A stretch of DNA of 22,363 nucleotides, from assembly GCA_025603075.1 (NCBI GenBank), contig MU626534.1:1-22363 (forward strand), written 5' to 3'. Below the pieces are notes generated by a model that was not told the origin of the DNA, made no database searches, and saw only the letters and a list, made by a program, of their open reading frames with translations. This document shows, piece by piece, positions 159-22,030 of the stretch. Each line of letters starts with the position of its first letter. The stretch's first letter is position 1. Made by a program: the position numbers and the translations under genes. This DNA comes from Neoconidiobolus thromboides FSU 785. Lineage: Eukaryota > Entomophthoromycota > Entomophthoromycetes > Entomophthorales > Neoconidiobolaceae.

Positions 159-284
159 ATGCAACTTACTTTCCTTATCGCTTACACTGTTTACATTATG
201 TCTGTAATCACTTCAGTTCCTACTAATAACCAACCAGCTGCTGATAAACCCAAAGCAATTGAAATCCGTCGTCACTGGCCTTAA
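159..284 (+). CDS. Small secreted peptide precursor ending in HWP (copy A)
   Basis: This 41-residue protein begins MQLTFLIAYTVYIMSVITSV, a typical short hydrophobic signal peptide, continues with a small Pro/Ala/Asn-rich stretch (PTNNQPAAD), and ends KPKAIEIRRHWP then TAA. I do not recognise the family. The evidence that it is a gene is comparative: copy C at 16978-17103 (minus) has the same length, an almost identical leader, the same promoter and the same HWP terminus, while copy B at 3250 is a mutated relic. Differences from C in the leader are mostly synonymous, but codons 30 to 36 are all replaced. By inference it is a secreted signal, such as a pheromone-like peptide, with the active part at the C-terminus. 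An RR pair precedes HWP in A, but C lacks a dibasic site, so a Kex2-type cut is not supported for the family. A small effector or defence peptide is the alternative. Confidence 0.75.
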   Translation: MQLTFLIAYTVYIMSVITSVPTNNQPAADKPKAIEIRRHWP

Positions 285-620
285 ACATGAAGTCAGATCT
301 TGACTACTATTACCTGGATATTCATTTATAAATAAATAGGATATTTGAAAAAATAATATTTTTTGTCTTTTTATATCAAAATTTGTGTTTTTTATTGCTT
401 ATAATAGATAAATATTACTATTTAATAACAATAGATCATTTAAATAAGCGAGCTTCTATGCTTTATAGTCTTCATTATAATATCTAAACCAGAAACTTTA
501 CTATTTAACTAAAAAAACACCTACTTAATTTGTAGCTAGTTTCTAAAAAATTGTAATTTACCACCATGAATAAATCCAACTTAACATTGTCATTGAGCAT
601 TGTAATATCTAGAAGCACCG
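285..620. other. Non-coding AT-rich stretch
   Basis: This is the 3' flank of peptide gene A. A short poly-T and AT-rich run at 345-400 could serve in 3' end formation. I see no open frame, repeat copy or RNA gene here. Confidence 0.5.
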
Positions 621-795
621 ATGTCAAAAACTGCTTTAGTATTTGTGTTCCTTCTATTATCTAATAAGCTAGAAACTATAACCATTTATTCGCCTAAACC
701 TAATCAATGGAGTAGTGTAAGATTATTAATATATATGTCTTCTCCAAAAAAAGGTCTGGGGTTATAGAGATCCGTTTGGTAGGGGGTACTGACTA
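621..795 (+). pseudogene. Possible relic of a secreted cell-surface protein
   Basis: From the ATG at 621 the frame reads MSKTALVFVFLLLSNKLET, a good signal peptide, then ITIYSPKPNQW, and runs to an in-frame TAG after about 50 codons. In another frame the following bases (about 755-790) read SGVIEIRLVGG. The order signal peptide, I-x-I-x-SP-x-x-x-x-W, then I-x-I-x-L-x-x-G resembles the N-terminal domain of Ser/Thr-rich GPI-anchored and KRE9/KNH1-like fungal wall proteins. That resemblance is from memory and weak. The rest of the protein is missing, so this would be a truncated, frameshifted relic. A chance open frame is possible. Confidence 0.3.
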
Positions 796-1986
796 AGTAA
801 GTAGTTTTTTTTTACTGCAAAGAATTCCTATTTTGGGCAGAATTTTATTCTAAATAAAAAAACTAATATCTAGAATAGAAACATAGCTGTTGTATACTTT
901 TAATAAGGTTAAACTAGGGAGTTTAGGGTTAGGGGTAGTATTTATATTCAATTAAATTTAACCTAAAATTTGTCTGATAAAAAGCAATACTTTACCAAAA
1001 AAAGTACTATCTACCCACTTATTGCCATCTGTTATACGTTCAACAGCTTTAGTATGTTTTTTGACTGCAGTGATTCCCTTTACACGCGATTTAGGTATAA
1101 AAGATAACATGATACATGCAATTTAGAAGTCAAAGTTATATAAGTCAGTGCTAATTACAGCACTTGTGAATTATTTTTCTGATAACGAAGTTTTGAATTA
1201 GATACTATTAAATTGATTCCTTTACTTTATGAAGTTTTTGTAGTTTGTTATTTTAAATTAGCATTTAATCTTATTTTATATAGTATTTAGTGAGATGATT
1301 CTATTGATTAAATTTAGTTATCAACCTTTTCTTAGATTACTCCTCCCTATTGAAGATTTAGTTTATTCAAAAAAACCAAAGATGGGAACAAAATAACCAC
1401 ATAAAAGAAAAATCAATCAGGAGCCCTATACCTATTGGAAGCTGGTAAAGTAACTGTTTTTTCCCAGTTAAGCGGCTAAAACGAAGAGAATTGACTATTA
1501 AAGGAATTAATTTGGTTACGAATGAAAAAAGTTTTTCCTATAGTAGCTTTTTCCATCCAAAGACTAGAACTTACTTAGATGGTGATAAAGAGATAAAGTA
1601 ACAAAAGAGCTTATTGAAGATCCTTTGAATAATTTACACAGTATATAAAGCTATAAAAAGTTTATTAAAGTTGTCTAACTCAATAATTAAAATAAGAGTA
1701 AAATCAAAAGACAATGACCATGATAGAGGACAATCAAATTTAATGTTAAAAGCAAAACTACAGGCATAGTAGGAATCTTGGATGAAATAATATGGTATAA
1801 AGTTATTTTATATATATTATTTAAAAGCAGAATAAAATATTAAGCTATTATTAGTTTTAAAAAAATCTCAAAATAGGGCAAGTCTTAAATGGTTCATCAT
1901 TTTAGTTTTGAAGGTAAATACAAAGAGTAAATAAAAGAGATAATAAGATATATACAGAGAACGAAATAAATCTAGTGCTATTAATT
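796..1986. other. Decayed AT-rich stretch, nothing assigned
   Basis: No frame longer than a few dozen codons is open. Scattered less AT-rich patches (about 1420-1530 and 1580-1760) look like worn coding sequence, but no frame gives a recognisable protein. No copy of the 102-bp repeat was seen. Confidence 0.4.
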
Positions 1987-3065
1987 TTAGTTTGGTAACT
2001 CTCTATTACCTTCGATTACAATCTTCATATCAGTTATTTTTTTAGAATATATCTTTTCAAATGATTGAATCAAATCTTCATTAAAATCATGAGAATATCG
2101 GAATGCAACTGATTTTTCGTTATTATATGGATTAAACATATCAGTAGATTTAGTTATAATTGGATACATTACTCATTCAAATGGTCGATTCCTCTTTGTT
2201 CTTTGTTTATAATAGATTGATAAGATCAAAAGTATTAGAAAAGCTACACCTGTAGAGCCGCCTAGACTAAATTCCATTGATTTATTAGCATTGCTACTAT
2301 CCTTAGTATTATTTCTTATTATTGTAATATAGTACATACTTTACCAGTTCTACAATAACAAAAAATAATAAATTAACGACAATACACCAAGTATTAGTAT
2401 CAATTGATTAAATTCTATCACTGTCAACAAATCCGAGCAATTGAGTAAAAAAGTTAAGCTATTAATTATAATACGCCATACAACCAAAATCTAAACTGAA
2501 AGTAAAGTTTGCTTCTTCGAGATTAAGGGAACTGGTATTTAATTTATAAGGGCCTAAATTTACAGCAACTGTAGATTGAAATAAATAGAATTTTCCACTT
2601 TTACTATTTTAATTGTTTCATTCTTTCTTGAATTGTTAAATTTATTAATAGTTAATATACCATTTAATAAATTATATCCATATGGCTGGTGAAATTTTAT
2701 TCGTGATTGATAACTAAACTCACTCTTTGATTCAAAATAATTAATCTTATCATTTAATGTGGACATTTCGCCCCTAGTAACTACTCAAGTATTAAATAAT
2801 GTCTTTAATTCGTTTGTTTCAATCTTATATGATGTTAAAAGTGATGTTTTAAAGTCTCTCTCATTATCATATATACCACCAATATAAAATTGGTTTAAAT
2901 TCAAACCATTTTGTATATTGAAAGTATACTAATATATAGCATCTGCTATCATACTATGATCATTATTTAATTTACTAATATTATAATAACTAACGAATGA
3001 TCCTTTATTTTTAGGCTAATGAAAGTTAATAATTGTATCACTTTTTTTACCAAGATAATAAGAAT
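1987..3065 (-). pseudogene. Relic of a kelch-type single-pass membrane protein
   Basis: Read on the minus strand from 3065, pieces of a kelch protein appear in order: YYLGKKSDTIINFH, then FYIGGIYDNERDFKTSLL (two kelch-like strands with LGG/IGG positions), a blade-like piece between 2766 and 2560, an Asn/Ser-rich stalk (NTKDSSNANKSMEF), one membrane helix (TGVAFLILLILSIYY) followed by the basic stop-transfer KQRTKRNRP, and a cytoplasmic tail ending at 1987. Several stops interrupt it (TAG, TGA and TAA), and the N-terminal half is missing: a fragment of the 102-bp repeat abuts the first kelch strand at 3066. The layout matches the broken kelch gene at 19347-20685, so both probably belong to one family of receptor-like surface proteins. 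The function is unknown. Confidence 0.65.
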
Positions 3066-3100
3066 ATGAGGATGTGCTTTTGTGTTTAAGTTTTAAACAA
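3066..3100 (+). mobile_element. Truncated end of the 102-bp inverted-repeat element
   Basis: The sequence ATGAGGATGTGCTTTTGTGT matches the left end of the element, and the match fades after about 35 bases. It separates the kelch relic (below 3066) from the decayed peptide-gene copy B (above 3110). Confidence 0.6.
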
Positions 3101-3249
3101 ACTACTTTATTAATATTAAATTAATACATTTATACTATCAACTTTAATTAAAGTTTTATTATAAATTATAATATCATTAAAATATAAATATTAAAGATTT
3201 TATTATCTTGTAAAATTATATTATATTATATACGTTACTTACAAATCCA

Positions 3250-3379
3250 ATGTGACTTACTTTCTTTATTGCTTATATTGTTTATATTCTATCTATAATC
3301 ATTTAATTTTTATTAATAACTAGCTAGCTATTAATATAGCTAATGCAATGTAATTAAAATTTGCTATCACTGACTTTAA
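3250..3379 (+). pseudogene. Mutated copy of the HWP peptide gene (copy B)
   Basis: This aligns with peptide gene A from its promoter through its stop codon. A TATAAATA box sits at 3183-3190, again about 60 nt before the ATG at 3250. The second codon is now TGA, and several further stops follow. The segment equivalent to the HWP end is still visible at about 3367-3379 (CACTGACTTTAA against CACTGGCCTTAA in A). Where A and C agree, most changes in B are C to T or G to A, with few small indels. This pattern fits cytosine deamination or RIP-like mutation of a duplicated sequence, or simple AT drift. It is not translatable. Confidence 0.75.
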
Positions 3380-3610
3380 ACATTAAATTAAACCTTATAT
3401 TGTTATTAATTAAAAATTAGAGTGAATTTTCTGATTTTTATTATTAATAAATATAATGTAATATCTATAAAATCAAGAAAAAAGGTTATATATTGAAATA
3501 TTGAAGATGCTAAAAATAAATATTTTAATTAACTATAAATATTTGAATATTTAAAATAGTTTATTAACTTTATTAAAGAAAATAAAAATTAATAATAAAA
3601 ATTAATAAAT

Positions 3611-5017
3611 TTATTTTAAAATTTGATTAATAAATTGTAATATTTTTTGTTTGGCATCTACTACTTCTAATTGATCATTACTATCTGGTTTATAGATATC
3701 CATTGAATGTGAGCCATTAATAACATTAATAATTTTCATTGAATCATATGTTGAATTAATAATAGATAATGAAGACCAAGGATCTAATTGACCATTAACT
3801 AATAATAAATTATTAACTTTAATATTTTTACTGTTATAATTTAAATTTGTTTTTGTTACATTTAATATTAAATTATTATTAATTCCAAATGTATTTTTAC
3901 AATAGAATTCCATATTAAAATTAATAGTTAATAATTTCGATCTTACTGGTAATTGATTTAATGGGGCTGTTTGCCAATATCCAAATTCAGTACAACATTG
4001 ATACATCCATTGTCTAAAAGCATCTCCACGATTCGGTTTTTCAATTGAATTGTATTTTAAATAATTGAAATCCTCTCCGCATTTCTTGTTATTTAAACGG
4101 AGTTTAAAATCTCTAATAAAATCTTCAAACTTTTCTTTTGATGTCCCATTTAACATTAATGAATTACAATAATTTTTTAAATTATTTTTTTCATTATATT
4201 GAACTAAAGCAGATAAATATAAAAAAGCTAAACCAAACTCATCATCTTTAACAGTTTCACATGTGAATCTCTTTTTCAATTCATACTTCTCTTCTATACT
4301 TCCATTCAATAATATATTATTAATAAATTCAAAGTTTTCTAAATGATAATTTAAACATGATTGTCCTCCGTGAGTTAATAATGCTTTTTGAACCATTAAA
4401 TCATATTCAAAGAAATCTATTTTAGCTTCTAATGCAGCTGATGAAGCAATAGCCCCATGAAATGTATCTGGATACTTGTATTTTGCCCAAGCAGCTAAAT
4501 TCCCTGCATAACTAGCGCCATGTAAAATCCATTGAGTATTCTTATTTTTCTCACTTATATTTTTAACAAAATTAACAATATCTAAAATAGCTAATTCAGA
4601 TGTTAGATATTTTAAACTATTTAAAGATAAATCTTGTTTTGGATAAGATTCACCATAGAATCGATGTTCTAATGCATAGATAATACCTCCTTGTTGTTCT
4701 GCTGCCGTTGTTAAGATTGAATTAGTCGTCCAATAATCCCCATATAATTCTCCTTCCGCACCAATAAATAAGAAAGCTGGACCTCCAGGACGATAATATT
4801 GATCATTTATAAAATAACGTTGGGACCAATAACCAGATTCTAATTCAGAATTATTATGGGATAAAGATTGATTAAACCATAATTGTTGTACTGAATTAAG
4901 TAATCGACTATTATGAGCTAATTGAGTAGGTGATGGATCTCTGTATTTAAAATATAAGAAATTGCTATGAATGAACAGTGGAAATAAGAAGAAAAGGAGA
5001 TTATAAATTGGATTCAT
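3611..5017 (-). CDS. Secreted serine carboxypeptidase, family S28
   Basis: This 468-residue protein is in the usual size range for S28 (prolyl carboxypeptidase, dipeptidyl peptidase II, thymus-specific serine protease). An N-terminal hydrophobic segment (about 1-18, NLLFFLFPLFIHS) is a signal peptide. Family landmarks appear in order: PGGPAFLFIGAEGE (77-90), EHRFYGES (117-124), the nucleophile motif HGASYAG with Ser169, the acid NGQLDPW with Asp412, and NGSHSMD with His437. The triad is complete. Several N-x-S/T sites and Cys residues fit a secreted, glycosylated enzyme. The gene is one uninterrupted frame from an ATG next to its signal peptide. A TATAAATT box (5081-5088, minus strand) lies about 64 nt upstream. 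Family members remove residues next to proline from peptide ends; whether this one is an exopeptidase at the N- or C-terminus cannot be read from sequence. Confidence 0.95.
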   Translation of the reverse strand: MNPIYNLLFFLFPLFIHSNFLYFKYRDPSPTQLAHNSRLLNSVQQLWFNQSLSHNNSELESGYWSQRYFINDQYYRPGGPAFLFIGAEGELYGDYWTTNSILTTAAEQQGGIIYALEHRFYGESYPKQDLSLNSLKYLTSELAILDIVNFVKNISEKNKNTQWILHGASYAGNLAAWAKYKYPDTFHGAIASSAALEAKIDFFEYDLMVQKALLTHGGQSCLNYHLENFEFINNILLNGSIEEKYELKKRFTCETVKDDEFGLAFLYLSALVQYNEKNNLKNYCNSLMLNGTSKEKFEDFIRDFKLRLNNKKCGEDFNYLKYNSIEKPNRGDAFRQWMYQCCTEFGYWQTAPLNQLPVRSKLLTINFNMEFYCKNTFGINNNLILNVTKTNLNYNSKNIKVNNLLLVNGQLDPWSSLSIINSTYDSMKIINVINGSHSMDIYKPDSNDQLEVVDAKQKILQFINQILK

Positions 5018-5080
5018 TTTTCTTTAATTTTGATTTTAATTAAAATAGAAATCAATGCAATTTGAATTCATTTTTATATT

Positions 5081-5088
5081 AATTTATA
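5081..5088 (-). promoter_or_regulatory. TATA box of the S28 peptidase gene
   Basis: Minus-strand TATAAATT lies about 64 nt before the ATG at 5017. The spacing is close to that of the peptide genes. The surroundings are very AT-rich, so a chance match is possible. Confidence 0.45.
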
Positions 5089-5553
5089 CTAATTTATTGA
5101 AACTTATTGAAATTTAGATTCCTATTTATGTTATTCTTTAGATGAGAAAATGATATATTTTATAATTAGATTACTTGTTTATTCTATAAAACACAACAAG
5201 TTATTAAGCTTGTGCTTGCATCTTCAGTCTATATTAAAAGCGATAATTAGTTATTACAGATAAATAGTAATATTTACTAGTATATTGAATTATCAATTGG
5301 ATAATAAGCCTATGATTTATGTAATGAAAATAGTTCGTATTTTATTTATCTTAGGTTTGGCAAGGGATTGATTACTATTTTTATTCAATTTATAATTAAC
5401 CGTTTTTATAAAATTTTTTAATATTCTTAGGTCTAAAACAATTAAATCGCTTTTTTTATTTATCTTATCAAAGTATAAATGATTAGAAATTACAAAACTA
5501 ATCCTTCAAAAAGGACTTTTATTATTTGATTTAATATTAAATAGTTTAATAAC

Positions 5554-5655
5554 ATGGGGTTTGTTTTTTTAGTTTCATTACTTTTTCCATTTTTAAGCGC
5601 TATTTGAGTGGAAGGATTCCCAATAAAATTCTTAAATATAAAAATAAATCCTCAT
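5554..5655 (-). mobile_element. 102-bp inverted-repeat element, copy 1
   Basis: This is the first full copy of the main repeat of the window. I call plus the orientation that starts ATGGGGATGTATTTTT and ends AAAAAAACACCCCCAT; this copy is in the reverse orientation. Both ends read inward as ATGGGG(A/G)TGT(A/T)TTTTT, and the middle carries TTTTTCC and GGAAAAA around an AGCGCT core, so one strand can fold on itself. No coding capacity for a transposase fits in 102 bp, hence a non-autonomous MITE-like element. The right part of this copy is diverged (CCCAATAAAATTC in place of TTGTTAGTAAAATTC). Confidence 0.9.
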
Positions 5656-5887
5656 ATATTATTTCTTTTATTTTACCTTATCAAACACTAATTAAAATGT
5701 CATTTGTTATCTATTTATCAGCAGGAAATACTTTATAAAAATGTAGTATTATTTTATTTAAATATTTAAATGATAATATGATATAAAGCTAATAATAATA
5801 AAGCAAAATTAGTTGATATTTACTTTTATTAAAAAAGATTTAATTAAATAACTTAATTACTTAATTATCTTTCTTTAAAATTAGAAA

Positions 5888-5989
5888 ATGGGGATGTTTT
5901 TTTTGGTTTCATTATTTTTTCCATCTTTTAAGCGCTATTTGAGTAAAAAAATTGTTAGTAAAATTCTTAAATACAAAAATACATCCCTA
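5888..5989 (-). mobile_element. 102-bp element, copy 2
   Basis: Reverse orientation and full length. The left end ATGGGGATGTTTTTTTT is intact, and the right end reads ACATCCCTAA. The AGCGCT core is intact. Confidence 0.9.
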
Positions 5990-7177
5990 AATATTATAAG
6001 TTCACTATAAATTTTTGTAATTTTTATTAAAAAAATAATTTAAGAGTATAATCTAATGCCTTTTTGACTGCTTAACAAGGTAATAGTTTTAATACTAAAT
6101 TATTATACTTTTAAGTTTTATAAACTTTTAATAAATTTTACATTAATGATCAAAAACTAAGTTATAAAGCAAATTAAAAGTAATACAAAAATAAGTTAAA
6201 TATGAAATTCAGAGTATAATGTAGCTTTTTAGTTGCTTATGTTAATAGGAGCTTAAATCCAAGTTATTCTTTTGTTGATGATTTTATAGTGATAAGTACT
6301 ATCTAACCTGTTCTCACTTCTGAAGCATTTCAACTTAGCTCTATTCTAATTTTAATAAAAAAACAAAATGTCATCTTGAAATTAGTTTATTGAACTTTTT
6401 AAGCTCATATTTCAAGAAAAAGTTAACTCAAAATGAATAGAGAAACTGGTTGAAGTAGAGTAGAGTAGAGTTGAATTATTACACTCATAAGATCTATTTC
6501 AATAATCAGTTTATCTTCAATTAAAGCAATAGCTTTAAGACCAAAAAACAAGTAACTGATGATACATCAATAATATTCTTTAAAAAATATTATTTTTTTA
6601 AGTAATTAGAAAACTTCAACTACATTAATAATATTCAACATCTTACTACAGCTCTATATTGTAATATCAACATTCTAAACAAAGTAAATATACATCGAAT
6701 TATTTTAAAGTAACGTGGTATTGAAGAATTTAATTCAACAAACCAATGAAATGAAAGATTTAAAATTAAGGTTTTTATTTTATAAAATAGTATTAAATAT
6801 TAATAATAAACTATTTCAATTTGAATCCCTCTTTTTATAAATAAAAGTTGATCTATTAGATGACACTCTTTGTATTAGTAAAAGGAGTTAGTTAGCTTGT
6901 ATATTACTTCTTTTTTTGTATTTATAGGTTTAAAATACATTGAGTTGGTATTATTTTAATAATAAAATATAAGTTATAGATGATAAGAGTGAATAAATTA
7001 AGTTCTTAATTTAAAATCAAGCAATGTTATAATATCATTAAGAACTAACAAATAACAGCCTTAATACTATAAGCTTAACATTTAACTTAATAACTTTAAT
7101 AACACTAATAATATTAAATAATTAAAATTACCTTATATAGTAATAATGATGGGATGTATCAATGTTTGATAATACAA
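5990..7177. other. Non-coding stretch upstream of the receptor gene
   Basis: AT-rich with no open frame of note. A GTAGAGTAGAGTAGAG microsatellite-like run lies near 6455. A short frame near 6265-6370 was considered and rejected as a reverse-transcriptase piece. The rest shows nothing. Confidence 0.45.
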
Positions 7178-7275
7178 ATGGGGGTGTTTTTTTATTTCAT
7201 CACTTTTTCCATCTTTTAAGCACTATTTGAGTAGAAAGCTATTAGTAAAATTCTTCAACAAAAAACACATCTCAA
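7178..7275 (-). mobile_element. 102-bp element, copy 3
   Basis: Reverse orientation, with left end ATGGGGGTGTTTTTTT and a diverged right end (ACATCTCAAAT). It ends about 170 bp before the ATG of the receptor gene and so may lie in its upstream region. Confidence 0.85.
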
Positions 7276-7399
7276 ATGTTATTTCTAAATATAATTTAAA
7301 TGTTCGCGAAACAACGATAATAATGAATTCAATTAATTAGTTAAATTCAATTACTAAATTAAGCTTTTATAGAATTTCAATTTATTAATTGAACTATAC

Positions 7400-7407
7400 T
7401 ATAAATA
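7400..7407 (+). promoter_or_regulatory. Possible TATA box of the receptor gene
   Basis: TATAAATA lies 36 nt before the ATG at 7443. Use of this box would give a very short 5' leader, and the tract around it is A/T only, so support is modest. Confidence 0.35.
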
Positions 7408-7442
7408 AAAAATAAATAAAAACTGAGAATCCATTTTCACTA

Positions 7443-8351
7443 ATGTTTAGATCACAATTTACAGAGTATATGTTACAATACTATGCTAACTCACTATCCA
7501 TAATAGTAACATTATATTCATTACTTTTATTTATTACTGTATCTTTTATCAACAATCGAGTCAACAATAATATACCTTATTTAATTTCCGTATTCATATT
7601 AATAAGTGATTTATTATATTCAATATGTCAAATAGGGTTTATATTTATTGATTTGCCACCAATAGCGTGTAAAATCTATCAATGGATGGAAATTTTATCC
7701 ATATCCTTATCAATGTTTTATGCAGCTACTATATCAATTATATTCTTATTAGCAATCAAATATGAACTAAGATTAACTTTAACAATGAGGGTATTAACGT
7801 ACAGTATAGCACCAATACTATCTATAATATTAAGTACATTGCCACTAGCTTTTGATAGGATAAGGACAGCAGATGGATGTGGCTTTAATATGAAAAACAA
7901 TGGAGTTGTTTGGATTTTAGCTACTAAGTTTGGAGCTACTTTTATTACCGTGTTTATATGTCCCATTATTTATATTGTAATCATCTACTATTTAGCATTA
8001 AAGAAGCGCATGTTAAGTCGATCAGGAATCGGTAGTGGAAGTAATGGCTCTTCAATACAATATAGAGCCTTTATACGACTATTCATTTATCCATTAATAC
8101 CTTTAATTAGCTATGTGTTTTATATGGTTGTGTTTATATTTGCTATCTTTAAAATTGAATTGAATAAGATGACCGTTTCTACTATTGGTGATATTGGCGC
8201 CTTTTTTTCTGGTTTACAAGGTTTTTTTAATTCACTACTATTTTTAACTAATAGTATCTTTTTAAAAGAAATTAATCAAGTGGGAGAATGGTATAGCGAT
8301 TCTTCCTTCTTTGATAAAACTTACTTTATTAAATTGAAACAATCTAATTGA
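7443..8351 (+). CDS. Seven-helix G-protein-coupled receptor, cAMP-receptor-like
   Basis: The 302-residue product is almost entirely membrane helices, roughly at 14-36, 45-68, 78-105, 118-137, 159-185, 209-236 and 247-273. There is a short outside N-terminus and a short tail. Cys76 (PPIACK, start of helix 3) and Cys146 (DGCGF, second outer loop) fit the usual disulfide. Ser/Gly-rich loop 3 (SRSGIGSGSNGSS) is cytoplasmic. The helix 2 motif SDLLYSI and helix 7 GFFNSLLFL are typical of the Dictyostelium cAMP-receptor-like and fungal Git3-like group rather than of rhodopsins. It is one exon, ATG to TGA, with no breaks. The ligand is unknown. It lies between secreted-peptide loci (relic B below, D above), which makes those peptides candidates, but non-peptide ligands are just as possible. 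Confidence 0.9.
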   Translation: MFRSQFTEYMLQYYANSLSIIVTLYSLLLFITVSFINNRVNNNIPYLISVFILISDLLYSICQIGFIFIDLPPIACKIYQWMEILSISLSMFYAATISIIFLLAIKYELRLTLTMRVLTYSIAPILSIILSTLPLAFDRIRTADGCGFNMKNNGVVWILATKFGATFITVFICPIIYIVIIYYLALKKRMLSRSGIGSGSNGSSIQYRAFIRLFIYPLIPLISYVFYMVVFIFAIFKIELNKMTVSTIGDIGAFFSGLQGFFNSLLFLTNSIFLKEINQVGEWYSDSSFFDKTYFIKLKQSN

Positions 8352-8550
8352 TTAATGTCAATAATAATTTAAAAGCTGGTCTTTAAATTACTATTGTTAT
8401 TGTTATTTAGGTTTAAATGATAAAATTTTCCACAACATTTAGTTAAAGTAAAGGAGAATTGAAAATTCAAATATCTCAATATCATTATTTTGACTCCAAG
8501 TTGCATTGTAAAGCATGATTATAACATCACAACCTCATTTTAAATAATAT

Positions 8551-8654: not shown

Positions 8655-8775
8655 CATTTCTTTTTCATCTAAGTTTATTAATAAATATTGAATATTTATA
8701 CTAATTTATTTATTTTGCTTATTTTATAAAACAAATTTTCTATTTAAATCTTACATATTGTTTCAAGTTAATTAT

Positions 8776-8877
8776 ATGGGGATGTATTTTTGTGTCTAAG
8801 AATTTTACTAACACATTTTCTGCTTAAATAGCGCTTGAAAAATGGAAAAAATAATGAAGTCAAAAAAACACTCCCAT
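8776..8877 (+). mobile_element. 102-bp element, copy 5
   Basis: Forward orientation, near-consensus, with flanks TA on both sides (TA then TGGGG at the left, CCCA then TA at the right). It lies 121 bp beyond copy 4 in the same orientation. Confidence 0.92.
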
Positions 8878-8984
8878 ATTCTTCATTAAATGTCAAAAAC
8901 AAAAACATCAATGAGACCAGTATAAACCCGTTATTTAGATTATATAAGAATGGACCTAAGGAAATTAAGCATTGATTTAATCTA

Positions 8985-9420
8985 ATTTTAAATTAGAATC
9001 ATAGTTCAGATATTAATGTGTTTTAGCAACAAAAGCATTTTATGGATAACTAGTTTTGTAAACTGGATATTCATTATAAATAAAAGTAGCTTATTGAGAT
9101 AATGAGTTACTAAATGTTATTGCCACCTCAAATTTATAAAGAATTGGAAGCAGACCCAATTTCTTTATAATATAACTAATTTCATTGTTCTAACTATCAA
9201 TGATTTCGACAATTTTATTAATAATCTTCCATAACAGTATTAGTAATACTAGAACAAAATGACTTGCTTCAGAGAAAAAGTATCCTTCAAATCTTGCTCT
9301 ATGGAAACGTAAAAGTATCCAACTGTCTTTATGAAGTGATTGCACTGATTACTCCAGTTGATTATTGAACTGGAAATATCAAATATATATGTATCCTACT
9401 TTGCCCTTTAGGGGGAATAA
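8985..9420 (-). pseudogene. Possible worn coding relic, unidentified
   Basis: On the minus strand, broken frames give protein-like pieces such as KKLGLLPILYKFEVAITFS, FIYNEYPVYKTSYP and INWSNQCNHFIKTVGYFYV, separated by TAA/TAG stops and frame changes. I do not recognise a family. The evidence is only that the composition is less biased than the neighbouring sequence. Confidence 0.22.
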
Positions 9421-10232
9421 AACCTTATCAAGTTGAGGTATTTTACTTGGGACAGTATTTCAAGCCCCACTTTTATTAATAGTTTAACAGATATATGATC
9501 AGCTCTTCAAACCCAAGGTAGAAAACAAAAATTAATATAAAATAAATACTTTAGAAGTTTCCATTTAAAAGGTAATTTACAAATCAAACATATATAGCAG
9601 ATCAAGATTTTATAGCTTTAAAACCCATTAAAAATTGTGGTCCAGAAATTTAAACCTTGAATGGATGTATTGATTTTGTACTGAGTTTGGTTAACGGCAG
9701 ATCACTTCATCATAAAAATAAAATTCTATTAGATTATGTTGATTAATTAGTTCATTTCATAAAGTTAATATAGACAAAGATGTATTTAATTCAAAGATAA
9801 AAAATTTACCAAATAGTACTAAATCAATGAATGATTAATGCCAAAAGAAACTTTTTATTAACTATTTGATGTTTATGAATCAAGAACTAAATCCTTTGAT
9901 GTTACTTTTTATTCTTAACTTCACTAGTGAATCAGTGTCATTAATAGTGATTAAAGTCAAATCCTACTGCTCATATATTACATTGTTTCTTTCCAATGAT
10001 TGAAAGGAAATGCTTTAAGCCGAGGAAAAATTTGCTACATTTATTAATTTTATTTTGGTATAATCTGAACTTAAATATTCAAGAGTATCTAAAGTATATG
10101 TAGCTAAAAAATAAAGTTTTAAAATAATCAAAGTTATACTATACTCGTTTTTACTAATATATAAGCCAACCGGTTATGGAATAAGGTAAATGGATTATAC
10201 ATACATATAAATAAATATGCATATGGGTAAAT
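9421..10232. other. Non-coding stretch, nothing assigned
   Basis: Mixed composition with a GC-richer patch at 9400-9480. No convincing frame, RNA gene or copy of the 102-bp element was found. Confidence 0.4.
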
Positions 10233-10370
10233 TTAAGGCCAATGTCCAGGAGGACCTTCGTCGTTACCAACAACTGTAGTTTTTGGAATAACGGGATTAT
10301 CATGAGCAACAAGATAAGAATTAATTGATAAAACAGATAGGGCAAATGCGAAGATTAAATTGAAGTTCAT
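10233..10370 (-). CDS. Small secreted peptide precursor ending in GHWP (copy D)
   Basis: This 45-residue protein begins MNFNLIFAFALSVLSINSYL, a clear signal peptide, then VAHDNPVIPKTTVVGNDE, and ends GPPGHWP before TAA. The leader is unrelated to that of A and C apart from length and hydrophobicity, yet the last four residues match C (GHWP) and the last three match A. The same short size, a secretion signal, and a TATA element (10441-10450) about 72 nt upstream support a real gene. Codon use is less AT-biased than the surroundings. There is no dibasic site before the terminus. By inference it is a divergent member of the same peptide family. It could instead be an unrelated secreted peptide with a chance HWP end; three terminal residues alone are weak evidence, but the combination with size and signal peptide is stronger. 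Confidence 0.7.
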   Translation of the reverse strand: MNFNLIFAFALSVLSINSYLVAHDNPVIPKTTVVGNDEGPPGHWP

Positions 10371-10829
10371 CTTTTAATTATTATTTTTAAATGAAAAAGT
10401 TTGTTTTCAAAATAACTCAAAAACCATTTGACCTTTTGGGTTTATATATTTGTTCCAGACTAGGACTGTAGATGTTACAATATAGCATAAACAGGTTTAA
10501 TGCAAGAATATTAATGTCTTTGTTTTTTATACTGGTTAAAATGGAGCTTATTGAGCCCATGTGTAATAAATTCATCTACCTATTTAAAAATCTTTAGTCC
10601 AATTTAATTAAACTATTATCAAAAATAGAACTGTTTTTCCGTATATTCCATTCTAGAACCATGTAATTCCGATTTTTATATATTTTATAGCGTTGACTAT
10701 ACAAACAAATCACTTATATAATGTGATATTAATGAACAATTGCGTTTTCGACTAAAATTTATCCATAATTTGGATATTATATAAATTTATCATCCTAATA
10801 ATTATAATAATTGAAAGAAAAAACTGATT
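10371..10829. other. Promoter and upstream flank of peptide gene D
   Basis: A minus-strand AATATATAAA element lies at 10441-10450. It does not align with the A/C promoter beyond the TATA box. Nothing else is visible up to 10829. Confidence 0.4.
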
Positions 10830-11042
10830 TTAATGTATGTTGGAATATAAATTATCGCCAAATCCACTTTGAGCTTTATAGATACTATAAACTTTAAAAA
10901 GTAAATCAGGACCACTGTAATAATAGGATGTTACATTCCTACCTACAATTAGAAATTGAATTCTGTGATATACCTCATGATCAAAGTAAGACTTAATCCA
11001 AGAGAGTGGTATTAATTTAAGCTTTTTATTTGTATCAAACAT
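10830..11042 (-). pseudogene. Open coding-like fragment fused to a repeat end
   Basis: Minus-strand frame open for about 70 codons, with pieces such as LIPLSWIKSYFDHEVYHR, IQFLIVGRNVTSYYYSG and DLLFKVYSIYKAQSGFG. I do not recognise it. The only in-frame ATG comes from the adjoining copy of the 102-bp element (11043-11143), so the open frame is the 3' part of something cut by the insertion, not a complete gene. GC content and residue use look coding. Confidence 0.3.
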
Positions 11043-11143
11043 ATGAGGATGTAATTTTGTGTTTAAGAGTTTCACTAACAATTTTTCCACTCAAATAGCA
11101 GTTAAAAGATAGAAAAGGTGATGAAGCTAAAAAACACCCCTAT
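11043..11143 (+). mobile_element. 102-bp element, copy 6
   Basis: Forward orientation. Left end ATGAGGATGTAATTTTGTG, right end AACACCCCTAT, flanked by TA. The core is changed to AGCAGT. Confidence 0.88.
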
Positions 11144-12063
11144 ATTTTGTCTATTTAGTAAACAAATGCTTATAGACTTTAATAAATAAGCGCCTGCTAG
11201 TATTTCCAATTTGCTGTATATTAATTAACAGTGTGGAATAGTTATAGAATTAATATAGTGGCATCTTATTAATTATTAAATAACACATGTTTTGTAGATA
11301 TTATAAATAGCCTACACAATCTTAATTAAATGCATCAAAACTAGTATTATGCTATTACATTTAGTTTTATCTTACAAAAAAGAGCTAAAGAATATTTTAT
11401 GTTACTAAGCTGATGTATGTTCTATATAAAAATTCGAACAAATAAATTAATTTTAATATATTAAAAAAACGACATGTAGAAGCAATAGTATAAAATCAAA
11501 TTACTAAAATTACTAAACATTAAAAAGACTTATTTTTATTATTATCATGAGATTTTAATAGTATTCCATTAATAAAATAGTTTACAATTAATCTCATATT
11601 TAAAACTGAAAACAAAATTTGTATAGTTTTTATTCAAAAAAGCATATGGATGTGTGTTCTGCCGTTATGATCTGTTTCATTTATTATACAATATAAAGAT
11701 AGGCAACTAACAGATATTAAAAAAAAGCTAATAACGCTCCTATATCACTTCACACTTGGATCCAATATATAAAGTCAGATAAAAATCAACTAAAATACAT
11801 TTTGATCTGGTTAAGACCAGTAACCCTTAAATTATGCTACCTTCGATTAATTGCCTGATTCATATCTCACTTGTGTCCACAGTACTTTCATGCTTAACTC
11901 ATCTTTAACTCACCTTTTCTCTATTTCCCTTTTTGATAAACCTTGTACTTATAAAACAGATGATTGAGAACCTCCAGTTCTTTCAAGATATCAAAAGAAA
12001 AATATTCTTTTATTTTTTCATTAAAAAAATAAAGATATTATAAATAAACATTTTTGTAACCAT
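11144..12063. other. Non-coding stretch
   Basis: AT-rich, with a slightly GC-richer part at 11820-11950 that yields no recognisable protein on either strand. It contains the doubtful repeat unit listed at 11644-11745. Confidence 0.4.
11644..11745 (+). repeat. Doubtful element with similar ends and the same length
   Basis: The unit opens ATATGGATGTGTGTT and closes ACGCTCCTATAT, 102 bp apart, the size of the main element. The interior does not resemble the consensus. It may be a very old copy, a related family, or chance. Confidence 0.25.
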
Positions 12064-12162
12064 ATGAAGATGTTTTTTTAGTTTCATTGCTTTTTCCATC
12101 TTTTAAGCATTATTTTAGTGGAAAAATCGTTAGTAAAATACTTTAAAAAAATACATCCCCAT
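12064..12162 (-). mobile_element. 102-bp element, copy 7
   Basis: Reverse orientation. Left end ATGAAGATGTTTTTTT, right end ATACATCCCCAT, with TA on both flanks. It is slightly shortened and its core reads AGCATT. Confidence 0.9.
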
Positions 12163-13113
12163 ATATAATATACCTTTTTTTAATAAATTAAACAAATACT
12201 ACAAAACCTTACTACAAAAATTACTAACTGTTTTATAAAGTTATTTCTTACTTGTCTTGTTCATAAAGTTTCTAACAAACCTTAATCCTTAATTTCGGAT
12301 TGATAATAATTATATTAACCAGTAATTATTTTTTGGCTCTTAAATGCCATTCAAGATAACTTCGTAAATAAGCTCAAATTAAAACACTTACAAATGCTAG
12401 TTTTATGGATGTACAATTAAGATAGTTTGAAGACATTAAATCTTAGGGACTTATATACTTGATTGAAACTAAGTTACAAGCATCAATATATATATACTGG
12501 TTTATATATCAGAGTCTTTTTCTGCCAGTTATCTTTAAATTTGCTTGATTCCTATATGTAAAAAAAAATTGATTTTTATAAATGATACCCCAATTTGTAC
12601 CTTACAATCATTGAGGTTTCAAAAATAAAATACCAATAAAAATGATTAAATATGAAATCGCTTTTCATATTCCAAAATAGATATAATACAATAAGAGTCT
12701 TTGTTCTAATTATAAAGCCCATTTCCTTCAGCTTTACCGTAGTTTGAAACCTTCAAAACTTTATACAAAAAATATCAATTCATCTTATATATAGTAAATG
12801 CTTGTTTAAGGTAGCATATTCTAGAGTTTCATGAAATTTGTTCTATTTATTTAGAAGTATGTTTATAATATAACCTTATAATTTTTTATATCATTGATAG
12901 TCATTATGTCTTTATACAAGTTTATCTACTGATCACTAGTATATAAGGAAGATATGCTATTAATTTAACTAAATTTGTTCATTCACGGAACCTGAGATCC
13001 GAAACTTTAGAAAATACATGAAATAAAAATGCATTGGTTTTTTTACCTTTCAAAAAATTATCACTATTGATATAAGTATAGTAAAATGTATTGAATAAAT
13101 TAGTTTAATACTA
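12163..13113. other. Non-coding stretch
   Basis: Strongly AT-rich with TATATA runs near 12487 and 12788. No coding frame, tRNA or repeat copy was recognised. Confidence 0.45.
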
Positions 13114-13210
13114 AAGAGGATGTTTTTTTTATTCCATTACTTTTTCCATTTTTAAGCGCTATTTAAGCGGAAAGATTGTAGAAAAATTCTTAAACAAGGT
13201 ACATCCCCAA
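13114..13210 (-). mobile_element. 102-bp element, copy 8
   Basis: Reverse orientation. Left end AGAGGATGTTTTTTTT, AGCGCT core intact, right end TACATCCCCAAT. A few bases are missing near ATTGTAGAAAAATTC. It ends 67 bp before tRNA-Pro. Confidence 0.88.
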
Positions 13211-13277
13211 TGTTAAATATCGAATTATTTTTAAGCCCTCAAAATGGTATATATATTTTTAAAAACCTAACTTATAA

Positions 13278-13349
13278 GGCTTAGTGGTCTAGTGGTATGA
13301 TTCTCGCTTTGGGTGCGAGAGGCCCTGGGTTCAATTCCCAGCTGAGCCC
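13278..13349 (+). tRNA. tRNA-Pro (anticodon TGG)
   Basis: This 72-nt cloverleaf has acceptor stem GGCTTAG with CTGAGCC (one T-G wobble), D arm with TGGTCTAGTGG as A box, anticodon stem CTCGC/GCGAG around the loop TTTGGGT, so the anticodon is TGG, and T arm CTGGGTTCAATTCCCAG as B box. No intron and no encoded CCA. It decodes CCN proline codons with preference for CCA. All stems pair, so the gene looks functional. A poly-T Pol III terminator follows directly. Confidence 0.97.
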
Positions 13350-13351
13350 TA

Positions 13352-13358
13352 TTTTTTT
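13352..13358 (+). terminator. Pol III terminator of tRNA-Pro
   Basis: A run of seven T begins three bases after the mature 3' end. Confidence 0.9.
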
Positions 13359-13404
13359 GATTTAACCCTTTTGCTATAAATCTGACTTTGAATTTTAGAA
13401 ACAA

Positions 13405-13438
13405 ATAGAGACCGTTTTTAATTTTATTGCTTTTTCCT
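13405..13438 (-). mobile_element. Probable fragment of the 102-bp element
   Basis: ATAGAGACCGTTTTTAATTT followed by ATTGCTTTTTCC resembles the first third of the element in reverse orientation; the rest is not recognisable. Confidence 0.45.
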
Positions 13439-13822
13439 GAGATAAAAATATTTTATAAAAAGACAACACTCCAGTGACATAATTAAGAAAAACCTATACA
13501 ACTAAAGTAATAACTTTAGTTAATGTATTCTTATAAAGCTTTATCTATTTGATAGTGAATCTGCAATGTTGGTTATAAAGTAGTCAATAATAAATATTTC
13601 TCAATAAACTACTTTAATGCTATAAATGCATCATTGGTATATTACTAAGTTAATAAATAACTGCATGGAAGGGAGTGGTTGGCCCCAAAGCTATAATTAA
13701 CCATCGATTTATAGTACAAGTAATATAATAATAGTTTTTATTACTACAACTACTCGCTCTTTGACTATTTATTAACTTAAGTAATATTAACATTTAACAA
13801 TTGATTTCTATCATTTAACAAA
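13439..13822. other. Non-coding stretch
   Basis: AT-rich except for a short patch near 13668-13690. Nothing assigned. Confidence 0.4.
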
Positions 13823-15050
13823 CTACTTAGTAAACATCGAAATTTTTAAATTCTCTGTTATTTTAGTAAGATAAGCTGAGATTGATCTTTTAATTTTTCT
13901 ATTTTCTATAGACTCTATAACTTTAATTGGAACTATATCGCTTTTTTTTGATGTATCAGATACTGAATAACAGTGTAGCTTATTGTTATGTTTAATAAAG
14001 TGTAGATGCTTCTTAATACCTTGCATTTCTATTGTTCTTTTTGTATTTTTGTTTCTTTTATATTTTTAAAAAATTATATCTGTTTTCCCATTATTAACAG
14101 TCAAGTTATTAATCCTATTATGTTCGCAAATAAAAGTCTCAAATCTTGAAATTAATTGATTAATATCTTCTATTTTATCTAATGCTTTAAAACCACTTTT
14201 CCATTGTGAAAGATTTCCAAAATGTCTATCAACTATACTTTTTACATGATGCTCAGTAAAGAAATTAAGATCAATATTTAAACTGCTATTTATTTTAGGA
14301 ATTTGTTTAAATATATAGGGATGTATTTTTATGTTCAAGAATTTTATTAACAATTTTTCTGCTCAAATAGTGTTTAAAAGATGAAAAAAGTAACGAAGCC
14401 AAAAAAACATTCCCATATAATGTAGGAACTCTTGAGATTTAAAATGATTTCCTGTATCTGCCCATATATTAATTTTGTAAACTTTAAATAAAAGCTTTGT
14501 GGAAATCAAATCAATTAAACATTCTACATATACCGGAATCATGATTTAATGTTTCAGATAAATAGCCAAAATAAACTTTCGTTGTTATTTTAACATCTTT
14601 TAAATACGAAACATCAAACCATAATACTAACATAGCTTGTTTCTTATAATGATCTGAATATATTGTGTTCGGTCTTGTTCCTATTTCCATATTCTGTTTA
14701 AAATTTAAAACTATTATACGACTTTTATTGTTTAATTTTTTGATAGTTTCATTAAATATGTTTTTTGAGTATCAACGCAAAATTGCGATATCGTTTTGTC
14801 AGCTCTATGATTGATTATGACATAATAATCACTTAAGTCGCTATGTCCTCGAGTTCAGACACAATCAATCCCATGTTCTTATTTTGATTTACTATTAGAA
14901 TTTCTAACTTTATCCTAAAAAATACCATCCTTTCATTTTGATATCTATATTTATCGGAGTATAGAAGAAATTTCAGAATATACCAATTCAGAACTTTTTT
15001 AACTGGATTATTCCCTCATATCTTGTACCTTTAATAAAGCCAGTAAATTC
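13823..15050 (-). pseudogene. Broken DDE-type transposase, interrupted by a MITE
   Basis: Read on the minus strand, fragments occur in the order expected of one protein: GEFTGFIKGTRYEG, ELVYSEISSILR, TRGHSDLSDYYVIINHRADK then TISQFCVDTQKTYLM, IIVLNFKQNMEIGTRP, YSDHYKKQAMLVLWFDVSY, WADTGNHFKSQEFLHY, and after the inserted element FFTEHHVKSIVDRHFGNLS and a C-terminal part to 13823. The V-L-N/D-F-K-Q-N, W-x-D-x-G-x-H-F and F-F-x-E-H-H-x-K-S-x-x-D patterns look like the three acidic catalytic sites of a DDE transposase; the first acid reads Asn here. I cannot name the superfamily. Many stops and at least two frameshifts make it dead. Terminal repeats of the parent element were not found. Confidence 0.68.
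14315..14416 (+). mobile_element. 102-bp element, copy 9, inserted in the transposase relic
   Basis: Forward orientation, left end ATAGGGATGTATTTTTATG, right end AACATTCCCAT. On the minus strand it splits the transposase between the codons for FLHY and IFKQ. Removing it with one copy of a TA-rich duplication restores an unbroken frame. The exact duplication length (TA, TATA or TATAT) is ambiguous because the site is alternating TA. Confidence 0.92.
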
Positions 15051-15155
15051 CCCTAATAATGTTTTATGTAGATTTTACAGTAGTATTGTCTATTCTATCT
15101 GTCTTGCATAGTCTGTAACATATTACATGCTACTTTCATAATTCGAGTAGAGTAT

Positions 15156-15258
15156 ATGAGGATGGTTTTTTTTGTTTTGTTACTTTTTCCATGTTTCAAG
15201 CGCTATCCGAGCGGAAAAATTGTTAGTAAAATTGTTAAATAAAAAAACACATCCCGGT
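15156..15258 (-). mobile_element. 102-bp element, copy 10
   Basis: Reverse orientation. Left end ATGAGGATGGTTTTTTTTG, core AGCGCT intact, right end ACATCCCGGT with two changes. It lies just beyond the upstream limit of the transposase relic. Confidence 0.88.
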
Positions 15259-15378
15259 ATCTTAGTCACATAAACTAAGACCTTTCGGCTTATAGCTAGC
15301 CAATTAAGCAATGACTATTTTTGATTTCAACTACTGGGTAACCAGATTTCACATTTATTAAATAATAGCTATTATTAT

Positions 15379-15480
15379 ATAGAGGTATTTTTTGACTTCA
15401 TCACTTTTTTCATCCTTTTAAGCGCTATTTGAGTGGAAAAATTGTTAATAAAATTCTTGAACATAAAAATACATCCCTAT
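15379..15480 (-). mobile_element. 102-bp element, copy 11
   Basis: Reverse orientation. Left end ATAGAGGTATTTTTTGAC, core AGCGCT intact, right end ATACATCCCTAT, in a TATA-rich target. Confidence 0.9.
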
Positions 15481-15568
15481 ATATTAGTTTGATTCTAACA
15501 AAAACTTTAATAAGATTTTGAATTTTATTGTAAATTATAAAGCTTTTTTTAATTTTACTAATTTTAAT

Positions 15569-15643
15569 ATAAGGATGTTTTTTTATTCTATTACTTTTCT
15601 TATCCTTTAGATACTATTTAAAAAGATTAGTAGTAAAATTTTA
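15569..15643 (-). mobile_element. 102-bp element, copy 12 (truncated)
   Basis: Reverse orientation. The left part ATAAGGATGTTTTTTTATTC through TTAGTAGTAAAATTTT is visible; the last 25 or so bases including the right end are gone. Confidence 0.75.
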
Positions 15644-15932
15644 AATGATAATAAACTAAAATTTAAGCATTTATTTAAAAAATGATTTATTAGTAACATT
15701 TCTTATTTCTAACTTTGAAGTTAAAAATTAAGCAAGTACCTTTGAAAATTTATCATATAATTAAATGATTCAAATTTACAACATAATTACATGCTAAACA
15801 ATTAAATGACCCCTACAATAATTCTAAAATTGTTATCTAAATGAAGCTGTAATTGATTAATTTTAGAAGAGACCCCTTAAAGTCTGTCAAAGAATAATAT
15901 GTACCTATTATTAGCTACAATGATGTATCTTA
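15644..15932. other. Spacer before tRNA-Ala
   Basis: AT-rich, nothing assigned. Confidence 0.4.
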
Positions 15933-16005
15933 GGGGTAGTAGCTCAATCGGTAGAGTACTCGCTTTGCATGCGAGGGGCACGGGGATCGAAACCCTGCTA
16001 CTCCA
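15933..16005 (+). tRNA. tRNA-Ala (anticodon TGC)
   Basis: This 73-nt cloverleaf has acceptor GGGGTAG with CTACTCC, including the G3-T70 pair that marks alanine tRNAs, and discriminator A73. The D arm is GCTCAATCGGTAGAGT, the anticodon stem is CTCGC/GCGAG around TTTGCAT (anticodon TGC), and the T stem is CGGGG/CCCTG. The T loop reads ATCGAAA, with A at positions 54 and 60, where elongator tRNAs usually have T54; this weakens the B box by one base but leaves it recognisable. No intron. The gene looks functional and reads GCN codons. Confidence 0.96.
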
Positions 16006-16009
16006 GCTA

Positions 16010-16014
16010 TTTTT
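16010..16014 (+). terminator. Pol III terminator of tRNA-Ala
   Basis: Five T start five bases after the mature 3' end, the minimum usual length. Confidence 0.75.
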
Positions 16015-16041
16015 ATAGCCTTGTTTCTTTGGGTACAAAAT

Positions 16042-16143
16042 ATGGGGATGTATTTTTTTGTCTAGGAATTTACTAACAATCTTTCTGTTCAAATAGCGTT
16101 TAAAAGATGAAAAAAATAATGAAATCAAAAAAACACCCCCCAT
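16042..16143 (+). mobile_element. 102-bp element, copy 13
   Basis: Forward orientation, ends ATGGGGATGTATTTTTTTG and AACACCCCCCAT, flanked by TA. It begins 36 bp after tRNA-Ala. Its reverse strand happens to hold an open frame starting ATGGGGGG. Confidence 0.93.
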
Positions 16144-16238
16144 ATGGTATACTAAGAATCTATCTATAATTTCAAATAAAATTGTTTAATTAGAATTTTG
16201 CCTTTATTAAGTATCAATCTATTAAGCTTATTATATAC

Positions 16239-16342
16239 ATGAGAATGTATTTTTGTGTTTAAGAATTTTACTAATAATTTTTCCACTCAAATAGCGCTTG
16301 AAAGGTAAAAAAAGTGATAAAGTCAAAAAAAAGCATCCTCAT
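16239..16342 (+). mobile_element. 102-bp element, copy 14
   Basis: Forward orientation, ends ATGAGAATGTATTTTTGTG and AGCATCCTCATG. The flanks extend the inverted repeat to TACATGAG and CTCATGTA. The TACTAAT motif and AGCGCT core are present. Confidence 0.92.
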
Positions 16343-16344
16343 GT

Positions 16345-16650
16345 ATTTTTTATTTTCCATCTCCTCATATCTTTGATATTAGTCTCATACACTCTTTGTC
16401 AAAATCTACCTTTTTTCTCTTGGTCTTTGGTAAATGTCAAGAGTTTTATAGCCTTTCTGTTGAAAACGAAGACTAGGCACTTCTGGTATCCATTGTATCT
16501 CTTATCTGATTGGAAAAATATTCAAAGACTTGAGGTTAAGCGGGATATCTTTGCCTGATCAAGTTCCAAAAAAGTAGAAGCATACTGGGAGAAGTTCTCA
16601 CCCTTTATAATAACTCCCTCACTAAAGCTTATATGTAGTGACAGCGCTTT
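16345..16650 (-). pseudogene. Coding-like fragment, unidentified
   Basis: This patch is clearly less AT-rich than its surroundings. The minus strand gives an almost continuous frame with pieces EGVIIKGENFSQYASTF, ELDQAKISRLTSS, FFQSDKRYNGYQKCLVFVF and NRKAIKLLTFTKDQEKKG, broken by two TGA codons, each one C-to-T step from CGA. The plus strand is also open for 86 codons starting inside the neighbouring repeat, which I regard as the shadow frame. I do not recognise the protein. Confidence 0.3.
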
Positions 16651-16738
16651 ATACAATTCTTTATCTTAATAAATTAAGCACTTGAGACTTCACCCTTTCA
16701 AAAAAATTACTGGCTTGCTAAATTATTAATATAAGCAT

Positions 16739-16840
16739 ATGGGGATGTATTTTTGTGTCTAAGAATTTTACTAACAATTTTTCCGCTTAAATAGCACTTA
16801 AAAAATGGAAAAAATAATGAAGTCAAAAAAACACTCCCAT
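16739..16840 (+). mobile_element. 102-bp element, copy 15
   Basis: Forward orientation, near-consensus, ends ATGGGGATGTATTTTTGTG and AACACTCCCAT with TA on both flanks. It lies about 140 bp from the 3' end of peptide gene C. Confidence 0.93.
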
Positions 16841-16977
16841 ATTTTGTTTCTAAGCCCTTGAGGCTAAATCAAGAGTCAAATAAAATTTAAATTTTTTAAA
16901 TACATATATTCATATATAGCTATGTTTATTTGGTAAAAAACAACTTCTTGATAGTCATCTAAAGTTGAGTGCAGTGT

Positions 16978-17103
16978 CTAGGGCCAATGACCGCGAGTTT
17001 TAAAGCCATAGGTTTGATCAGCAGCAGGTTGGTTGTTAATAGGGACTGAAGTGATTACAGACATAGTGTAAACGGTGTAAGCGATAAGAAAAGTAAGTTG
17101 CAT
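16978..17103 (-). CDS. Small secreted peptide precursor ending in GHWP (copy C)
   Basis: This 41-residue paralog of the peptide at 159-284 has leader MQLTFLIAYTVYTMSVITSV, linker PINNQPAAD, then QTYGFKTRGHWP and TAG. Against A, the first 29 codons have two replacements and five silent changes. Codons 30-36 are all replaced (K/Q, P/T, K/Y, A/G, I/F, E/K, I/T), then Arg37, His39, Trp40 and Pro41 are kept with silent changes in three of them. That distribution shows selection on protein sequence at both ends and change in between. Reading frame, length and stop position are conserved, so the gene is very probably live. The role is inferred to be a secreted signal with sequence-specific recognition; the maturation site is not evident. 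Confidence 0.77.
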   Translation of the reverse strand: MQLTFLIAYTVYTMSVITSVPINNQPAADQTYGFKTRGHWP

Positions 17104-21796: not shown

Positions 21797-22030
21797 TTTA
21801 TGCTTATAAATTATAGTTTATTTTAACTATATAATTTAAAACATGGTTGTTAGCTTTATTTAAGATTATAATGCTATATAAACAGTTATCTTTCTTGAAA
21901 TATAATGTTTTACTATATAGCTAAATCCTAAACTTTATTTACGTCCTCAGCTTTTTACTATAAAATATTTTTTGTTTTTTAGTTATATTAAATGATTTCT
22001 CAATATAAATTTTGATATCTAATTAAATAT

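Follow-up and report, generated by a model that had tools for sequence, protein, structure and literature searches.

Fungal pheromones of the a-factor type carry a CaaX motif and are farnesylated, and basidiomycete mating loci hold several short pheromone precursors beside genes for G-protein-coupled receptors (GPCRs). According to the available part of one source, fungi also have KEX2-processed repeat proteins (KEPs), which include the alpha-type pheromone precursors and require repeats and dibasic sites (PMC6339444). Here we describe very short genes in 22,363 nucleotides of DNA (hereafter the window) from the entomophthoralean fungus Neoconidiobolus thromboides FSU 785, corresponding to positions 1 to 22,363 of the forward strand of contig MU626534.1, which is contig C277 among the 392 contigs of the 23.1 Mb genome that was searched. 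Each gene encodes a small precursor ending in His-Trp-Pro (HWP) immediately before the stop codon. Judged by their sequences, these genes form a real and closed family, known to date from one genome, whose minimal precursors have an HWP end under selection. Our tentative reading, possible though short of an even chance, is that they encode small secreted peptides acting as an extracellular signal, with GPCR-like proteins as possible receptors.

A preliminary description of the window had reported three short intact open reading frames (ORFs), each ending in HWP and a stop codon, together with a fourth, decayed copy. Translation bore out the three ORFs, and the decayed copy was recovered at 3085-3386 on the plus strand, about 70% identical to the A1 unit and with in-frame stops. 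The check that had been proposed, a search for more genomic copies, was run and found them, giving six distinct intact loci in the whole genome, four belonging to subfamily A (MQLTF...) and the other two to subfamily B (MNFNL...), all six ending in HWP, and two decayed copies (3085-3386 of the window and C249 from about position 198). The family set was assembled from protein searches with A2, B2, B1 and A4 (the last without its first Met), from the HWP-stop pattern and from the subfamily A promoter pattern given below, and the results agreed. No intact copy with a different end was returned by the four protein searches at E ≤ 10, which impose no HWP requirement. The terminus was thus kept in every intact paralogue found, paralogues being what the comparison covered. 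The match at C347:14291 is the A1 locus itself (C277:159), because the last 294 bases of C347 are the first 294 of C277. Subfamilies A and B appear to have little in common beyond layout and HWP: identity between B and A1 was 17-20%, and the invariant columns across the six precursors were M1 and HWP. None of the six contained cysteine.

Chance produced no such ORFs in simulated sequence, as 100 Markov windows (2.24 Mb) yielded 3,931 ATG ORFs of 30-60 amino acids and none ended in HWP, while three of the 40 ORFs of this kind in the window did. Throughout the genome the pattern CAYTGGCCNTRR was found at 33 places against two for the reversed pattern, a control that includes CCGG and matches imperfectly in composition. 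Eight of the 33 continued into TGG and 25 were HWP-stop places, seven of which corresponded to family ORFs (six loci, one being counted in two overlapping contig ends). No ATG ORF of at least 20 codons ended at the other 18 HWP-stop places.

The substitutions among the four A copies were distributed very unevenly. Pooled proportions of non-synonymous and synonymous differences (pN/pS) were 0.097/0.336 for residues 1-28, 0.425/0.316 for residues 29-38 and 0/0.897 for HWP, with pairs that are not independent and an HWP stretch that offers about 1.3 synonymous sites per pair. All ten columns in residues 29-38 were variable and none of the three in HWP (Fisher p = 0.0035). The HWP codons differed synonymously only, and the three variable nucleotide sites in codons 39-42 were all third positions, including the TAA/TAG difference. 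Identity between the copies was 60-77% over 300 bp upstream and 71-83% in the coding sequence (CDS); after the stop it was 49-75% across the first 60 bp and fell to 41-46% further downstream. In these alignments the leader of the A genes is constrained, the middle free and the end fixed, which is the pattern of coding genes, and the conserved end was found to be under purifying selection among paralogues, namely the four A copies.

The A copies also share promoter elements (Table 1). An AGTATAWATAG box located 25-50 bases before GATACAAATT, with no mismatches, was exclusive to the A loci genome-wide (five places, four loci; control, 0). The A promoter elements were not found upstream of B1, and the region upstream of B2 contained solely a TATAAATA at -339. 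The HWP ORFs look real and selected, because their HWP codons change only synonymously, this promoter is exclusive to A loci and the simulation gave no HWP ORF. They appear to be unannotated, because they are absent from a protein database that includes named proteins of the same strain.

Table 1. Coordinates of the HWP genes, promoters, decayed unit and neighbouring ORFs (aa, amino acids)
Feature	Location	Strand	Sequence or elements	C-terminus	Basis or remark
A1, subfamily A, intact, 41 aa	window 159..284	+	MQLTFLIAYTVYIMSVITSVPTNNQPAADKPKAIEIRRHWP	RRHWP	translation
A2, subfamily A, intact, 41 aa	window 16978..17103	-	MQLTFLIAYTVYTMSVITSVPINNQPAADQTYGFKTRGHWP	RGHWP	translation
A3, subfamily A, intact	C355:13468				protein and pattern searches
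Further subfamily A copy, intact	C347:4597				protein and pattern searches
B1, subfamily B, intact, 45 aa	window 10233..10370	-	MNFNLIFAFALSVLSINSYLVAHDNPVIPKTTVVGNDEGPPGHWP	PGHWP	translation
B2, sole other intact subfamily B gene found in the genome	C249:1529-1660				protein and pattern searches
A1 core promoter	window 89..146	+	TATA-like AGTATAAATAG and GATACAAATT element		alignment, exact pattern
A2 core promoter	window 17117..17174	-	elements as in A1		alignment, exact pattern
Decayed subfamily A unit (promoter and CDS)	window 3085..3386	+			about 70% identical to A1 unit over 312 aligned columns; in-frame stops
S28 peptidase ORF (prolyl peptidase family), intact	window 3611..5017	-			Pfam PF05577, E 1.4e-86; link to peptides positional only
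GPCR-like ORF, 302 aa, seven-helix, intact, candidate receptor	window 7443..8351	+			model, structure matches; link to peptides positional only

Like the KEPs, as presented in the available part of PMC6339444, the HWP precursors are short secreted-type fungal precursors of signalling-type peptides; unlike them, they have a single constant end at the very C-terminus, no repeats and no conserved dibasic sites. Among the dibasic pairs KR, RR, KK and RK, only an RR was present, in A1, the other five intact precursors having none. With a single HWP end, no internal repeat by reading and RR in A1 only, membership of the KEPs was rejected, and so was release of the HWP tripeptide by KEX2. The mature peptide is probably of about 20 residues and not the tripeptide alone, because a dibasic site precedes HWP in one copy of the six. 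The a-factor-type pheromones resemble the HWP family in being very short single-product precursors, present in several copies, with a fixed C-terminus. In contrast to them, the HWP precursors lack cysteine and CaaX and have an N-terminal hydrophobic leader, that is, the classical secretion route; membership was rejected on the HWP end of all six and their lack of cysteine. No HWP-ended family was found described in the literature, most subscription papers lying outside the search, and the matches listed for the GHWP, RHWP and HWP motifs were unrelated abbreviations only.

The genome also contains a second, unrelated family of secreted-type precursors of 66-87 amino acids, with six matches: C370:1897-2130 (minus strand, L042), C376:6759-6989, C376:2947-3174, C376:1357-1533, C154:42-215 and C370:11454-11687. 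Clear dibasic-flanked repeats in the layout of KEX2-processed repeat proteins were seen in the C370:1897 and C376:6759 precursors (RRGSGRPYGRR, RRGAYRPYGRR) and were weaker in the other four. Between the stretches at C376:1357 and C154:42, 259 of 286 bases are identical.

Five of the six loci passed a crude hydropathy screen as leader-like and A2 did not; a putative N-terminal signal peptide is proposed for the family. A signal peptide of about 19-22 residues would be cut off after ...ITS in A and after ...LVA or ...LIA in B, and the cleavage would release a single peptide of about 21-23 residues with a free -HWP end, expected to begin VP[TIV]NNQ... in A and HDNP... or RDNV... in B. HWP would be the constant recognition (or stability) element of this peptide; a C-terminal proline is expected to hinder carboxypeptidases. 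The ten residues before it, which differ between paralogues, may be a spacer or may provide paralogue-specific specificity. An HWP end common to A and B would be read, most simply, by a receptor or binding partner. The likeliest role would be that of an extracellular signal between cells of the fungus, and the receptors may be GPCR-like proteins, two of which are encoded within the same cluster, this being the weakest step of the proposal.

The cluster extends beyond the window. Besides the overlap between C347 and C277, the last 134 bases of C355 are exactly the first 134 of C347. The A2 promoter matches the A3 promoter on C355, and the similarity resumes at the start of C347, at the corresponding distance (L038 256-68 vs A2 281-473); the match of the A1 unit to A3 continues across the end of C347 into C277. 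From these shared ends, which may also arise from repeats, we infer that C355, C347 and C277 join into a single stretch, 50,145 bp long by hand arithmetic, in which about 31 kb hold five of the six intact genes. The other end of C277 shares 359 bp with an end of C250 in the same orientation and is not a join.

The 302-residue GPCR-like protein of the window was modelled as a helix bundle (pLDDT 80.4, pTM 0.77). Among the 50 Foldseek matches listed, nearly all were class A GPCRs and one was an adhesion GPCR (query TM 0.53-0.68); this structural match does not fix the class, because solved GPCRs are mostly of the rhodopsin class (class A). The best PDB sequence match reached only E 0.83. No Pfam STE2 or STE3 match was obtained at E ≤ 1 for window 7443-8351 or for the six paralogues scanned (four of them strong), and none of these proteins gave a Pfam 7tm (7tm_1) match. 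One paralogue (L049) had a sub-threshold match to GPR_Gpa2_C (13.1 bits vs a cut-off of 21), so that the family may be of a glucose/cAMP-receptor-like class. Many rhodopsin-like GPCR homologues are described in Entomophthoromycotina in the available part of a recent source (PMC12842992). The window protein comes from a fungus of the same subphylum and its model matches mostly rhodopsin-class structures, but it differs from those homologues, as that part presents them, in lacking a Pfam 7tm match.

The window GPCR had 16 matches in the genome at E ≤ 0.001; the 12 strong ones (E ≤ 4.5e-23) each had an ORF of 287-319 amino acids. The second GPCR-like ORF of the cluster, at C347:7174, lies about 13.5 kb from the first in the joined stretch. 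In a tree of 12 GPCR-like proteins this pair were not sisters, the C347 protein grouping with C9_51k (96/97) and the C277 protein with C6 (80/81, long-branched), so local tandem duplication is not a simple explanation for the pair. Since C9 also holds a non-sister pair, an old GPCR pair may have been copied around. The sequence flanking the C9 pair, about 1.5 kb and 11.4 kb, showed no HWP relative. The 12 strong matches occupy six places, and a hand estimate under uniform placement, an assumption violated by gene-turnover-rich regions, puts the probability that they overlap a 50-kb stretch by chance at about 1-2%. As in basidiomycete pheromone/receptor loci, several short precursor genes and two GPCR-like ORFs stand in one cluster; unlike in those loci, the GPCR-like proteins have no STE3/STE2 Pfam match, the precursors are not CaaX proteins and the functional link is unproven. 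The peptide-receptor pairing in the cluster is only suggestive.

The S28 peptidase ORF of the window had the A. niger prolyl endoprotease as its best-scoring solved structure, and its best named relatives were in Neoconidiobolus thromboides FSU 785 (47-52% identity). One of these named proteins, P0005, is 100% identical over 476 residues to a sequence in the genome searched here. A decayed S28 fragment with nine stops lies near B1 (9629-10060, plus strand). On C318 (L066, C318:1-9000) an S28 ORF at 1903-3384 (plus) adjoins a decayed relative of the window GPCR at 3667-4233 (minus), an arrangement that recalls the S28 and GPCR neighbours in the window; these 9 kb revealed no HWP remnant.

In the decayed A unit, at sites where at least three intact A copies agree, changes had occurred at 27 of 44 C, 12 of 20 G, 11 of 92 A and 5 of 87 T, and C>T (25) and G>A (10) made up 35 of the 55. 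In a longer alignment that included flanks, C>T and G>A accounted for 43 of 145 changes, a signal diluted by unalignable flanks. This selective loss of C and G, seen in a single copy, resembles repeat-induced point mutation or cytosine deamination. The decayed subfamily B copy (L041, C249 198-350), about 1.3 kb before intact B2, has a readable leader, a lost frame and partly kept DNA for the PGH-W end. An interspersed repeat of about 112 nucleotides occurs in both orientations (window 8769-8880, 14308-14419, 16732-16843, 22024-22135 and others); a query with one copy gave at least 63 genome matches (40 of 2771 candidates scored), and the repeat creates short ORFs that recur (FFLVSLFFPFFKRYLSGKIVSKIL...) and can mislead searches for short ORFs. 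The short ORF at window 958-1110 (minus; MLSFIPKSRVKG...) resembles by eye part of the C347 ORF L039:1227-1949 (...MLSFIPKSRIKT...) and may be a decayed duplicate located across A1 from it. At 19366-20343 and 20479-20685 (plus) the window contains what appears by eye, with weak kelch matches, to be a gene for a kelch-repeat protein with a single transmembrane segment, split into several frames; relatives that look intact by eye are on C355 (L040:2690-4090, L067:4012-5388).

A secreted signalling ligand is the best reading of the predicted role, leading but unproven. The preliminary description put forward a family of tiny precursors of secreted type that share a constant HWP end, and this is well supported by the copies, the terminus and the substitution pattern; the pheromone or hormone role suggested there stays a proposal, with no homologue found in another species and a receptor linkage that is only suggestive. 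Several observations weigh against a signalling ligand. No homologue in other species was found in the protein database, either with a single sequence (P0003) or with the six-sequence alignment, in a search that requires three 5-residue words in common and may overlook diverged relatives. The sample is of four A and two B sequences only, in non-independent pairs whose rates could be blurred by gene conversion. A2 failed the hydropathy screen (best 11-residue mean 1.48 vs a threshold of 1.6). Other multicopy families and decayed genes (S28, kelch) are present in the region, and the co-occurrence of peptides and GPCRs may thus reflect a gene-turnover-rich region. Finally, ten other strong GPCR loci (C9, C8, C16, C6, C262) share no contig with an HWP gene, and C249 and C355 carry HWP genes without a GPCR match, indicating that peptides and receptors are not generally paired; the HWP genes are on C249, C277, C347 and C355 only.

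The alternative that survives best, although we consider it rather unlikely, is that the products are secreted effectors or antimicrobial or competitor-directed microproteins, aimed at another organism or strain, with a middle made variable by an arms race and HWP as a fixed functional tip. The strong variation in residues 29-38, the clustered duplications with decayed copies and the failure to find a homologue elsewhere would all suit it. However, the lack of cysteine is unlike many stable secreted effectors, and a strictly fixed C-terminal tripeptide in two otherwise unlike subfamilies suits a receptor-read end better. A lower probability is given to membrane-anchored microproteins, in which the hydrophobic segment would be uncleaved and the HWP tail would regulate a membrane protein or bind a C-terminus-binding domain. 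The hydrophobic stretch of A is only moderate, A2 falling short in the crude screen, residues 1-28 are conserved as a block beyond the hydrophobic core, and C-terminal tripeptides are classic targeting tags; on the other hand, subfamily B is signal-peptide-like in shape by eye, and beyond position 28 the residues are free to vary, as they would be in a released peptide. That the genes are spurious short ORFs riding in duplicated DNA is highly improbable and largely refuted: the copies do lie within a region of duplicated and decayed genes, but the explanation was rejected on the simulation and on the coding-type substitutions, with HWP changes synonymous only and the stop kept as TAA or TAG, and homology fades soon after the stop. 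The least probable explanation, by which the ORF would be an exon within a longer spliced gene or would belong to a mobile element, could draw on the copies in both orientations and on a short inverted pair straddling A2 (16876-16894 / 17453-17471, 19 nt, 84%), but the 61-300 bp past the stop are unconserved, so that there is no shared downstream exon and a spliced longer gene was rejected, the inverted arms are short, A+T-rich sequences, and the genome yielded no intact copies beyond the four A and the two B.

Within the signalling reading, the boldest version would make the 50-kb cluster a non-Dikarya peptide-pheromone locus, where the C-terminal HWP of several peptides from single-copy precursors of the classical secretory kind would be read by GPCR-like proteins encoded between them. 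Such a locus would be a counterpart, of independent origin, to the mating systems of ascomycetes and basidiomycetes; we regard this as quite unlikely. No described peptide pheromone of Entomophthoromycotina was found in the literature searched. A small closed precursor family with a selected C-terminal tripeptide represents a concrete and cheap set of candidate ligands and, if confirmed, would mean that genes near 40 codons under real constraint escape annotation in such genomes.

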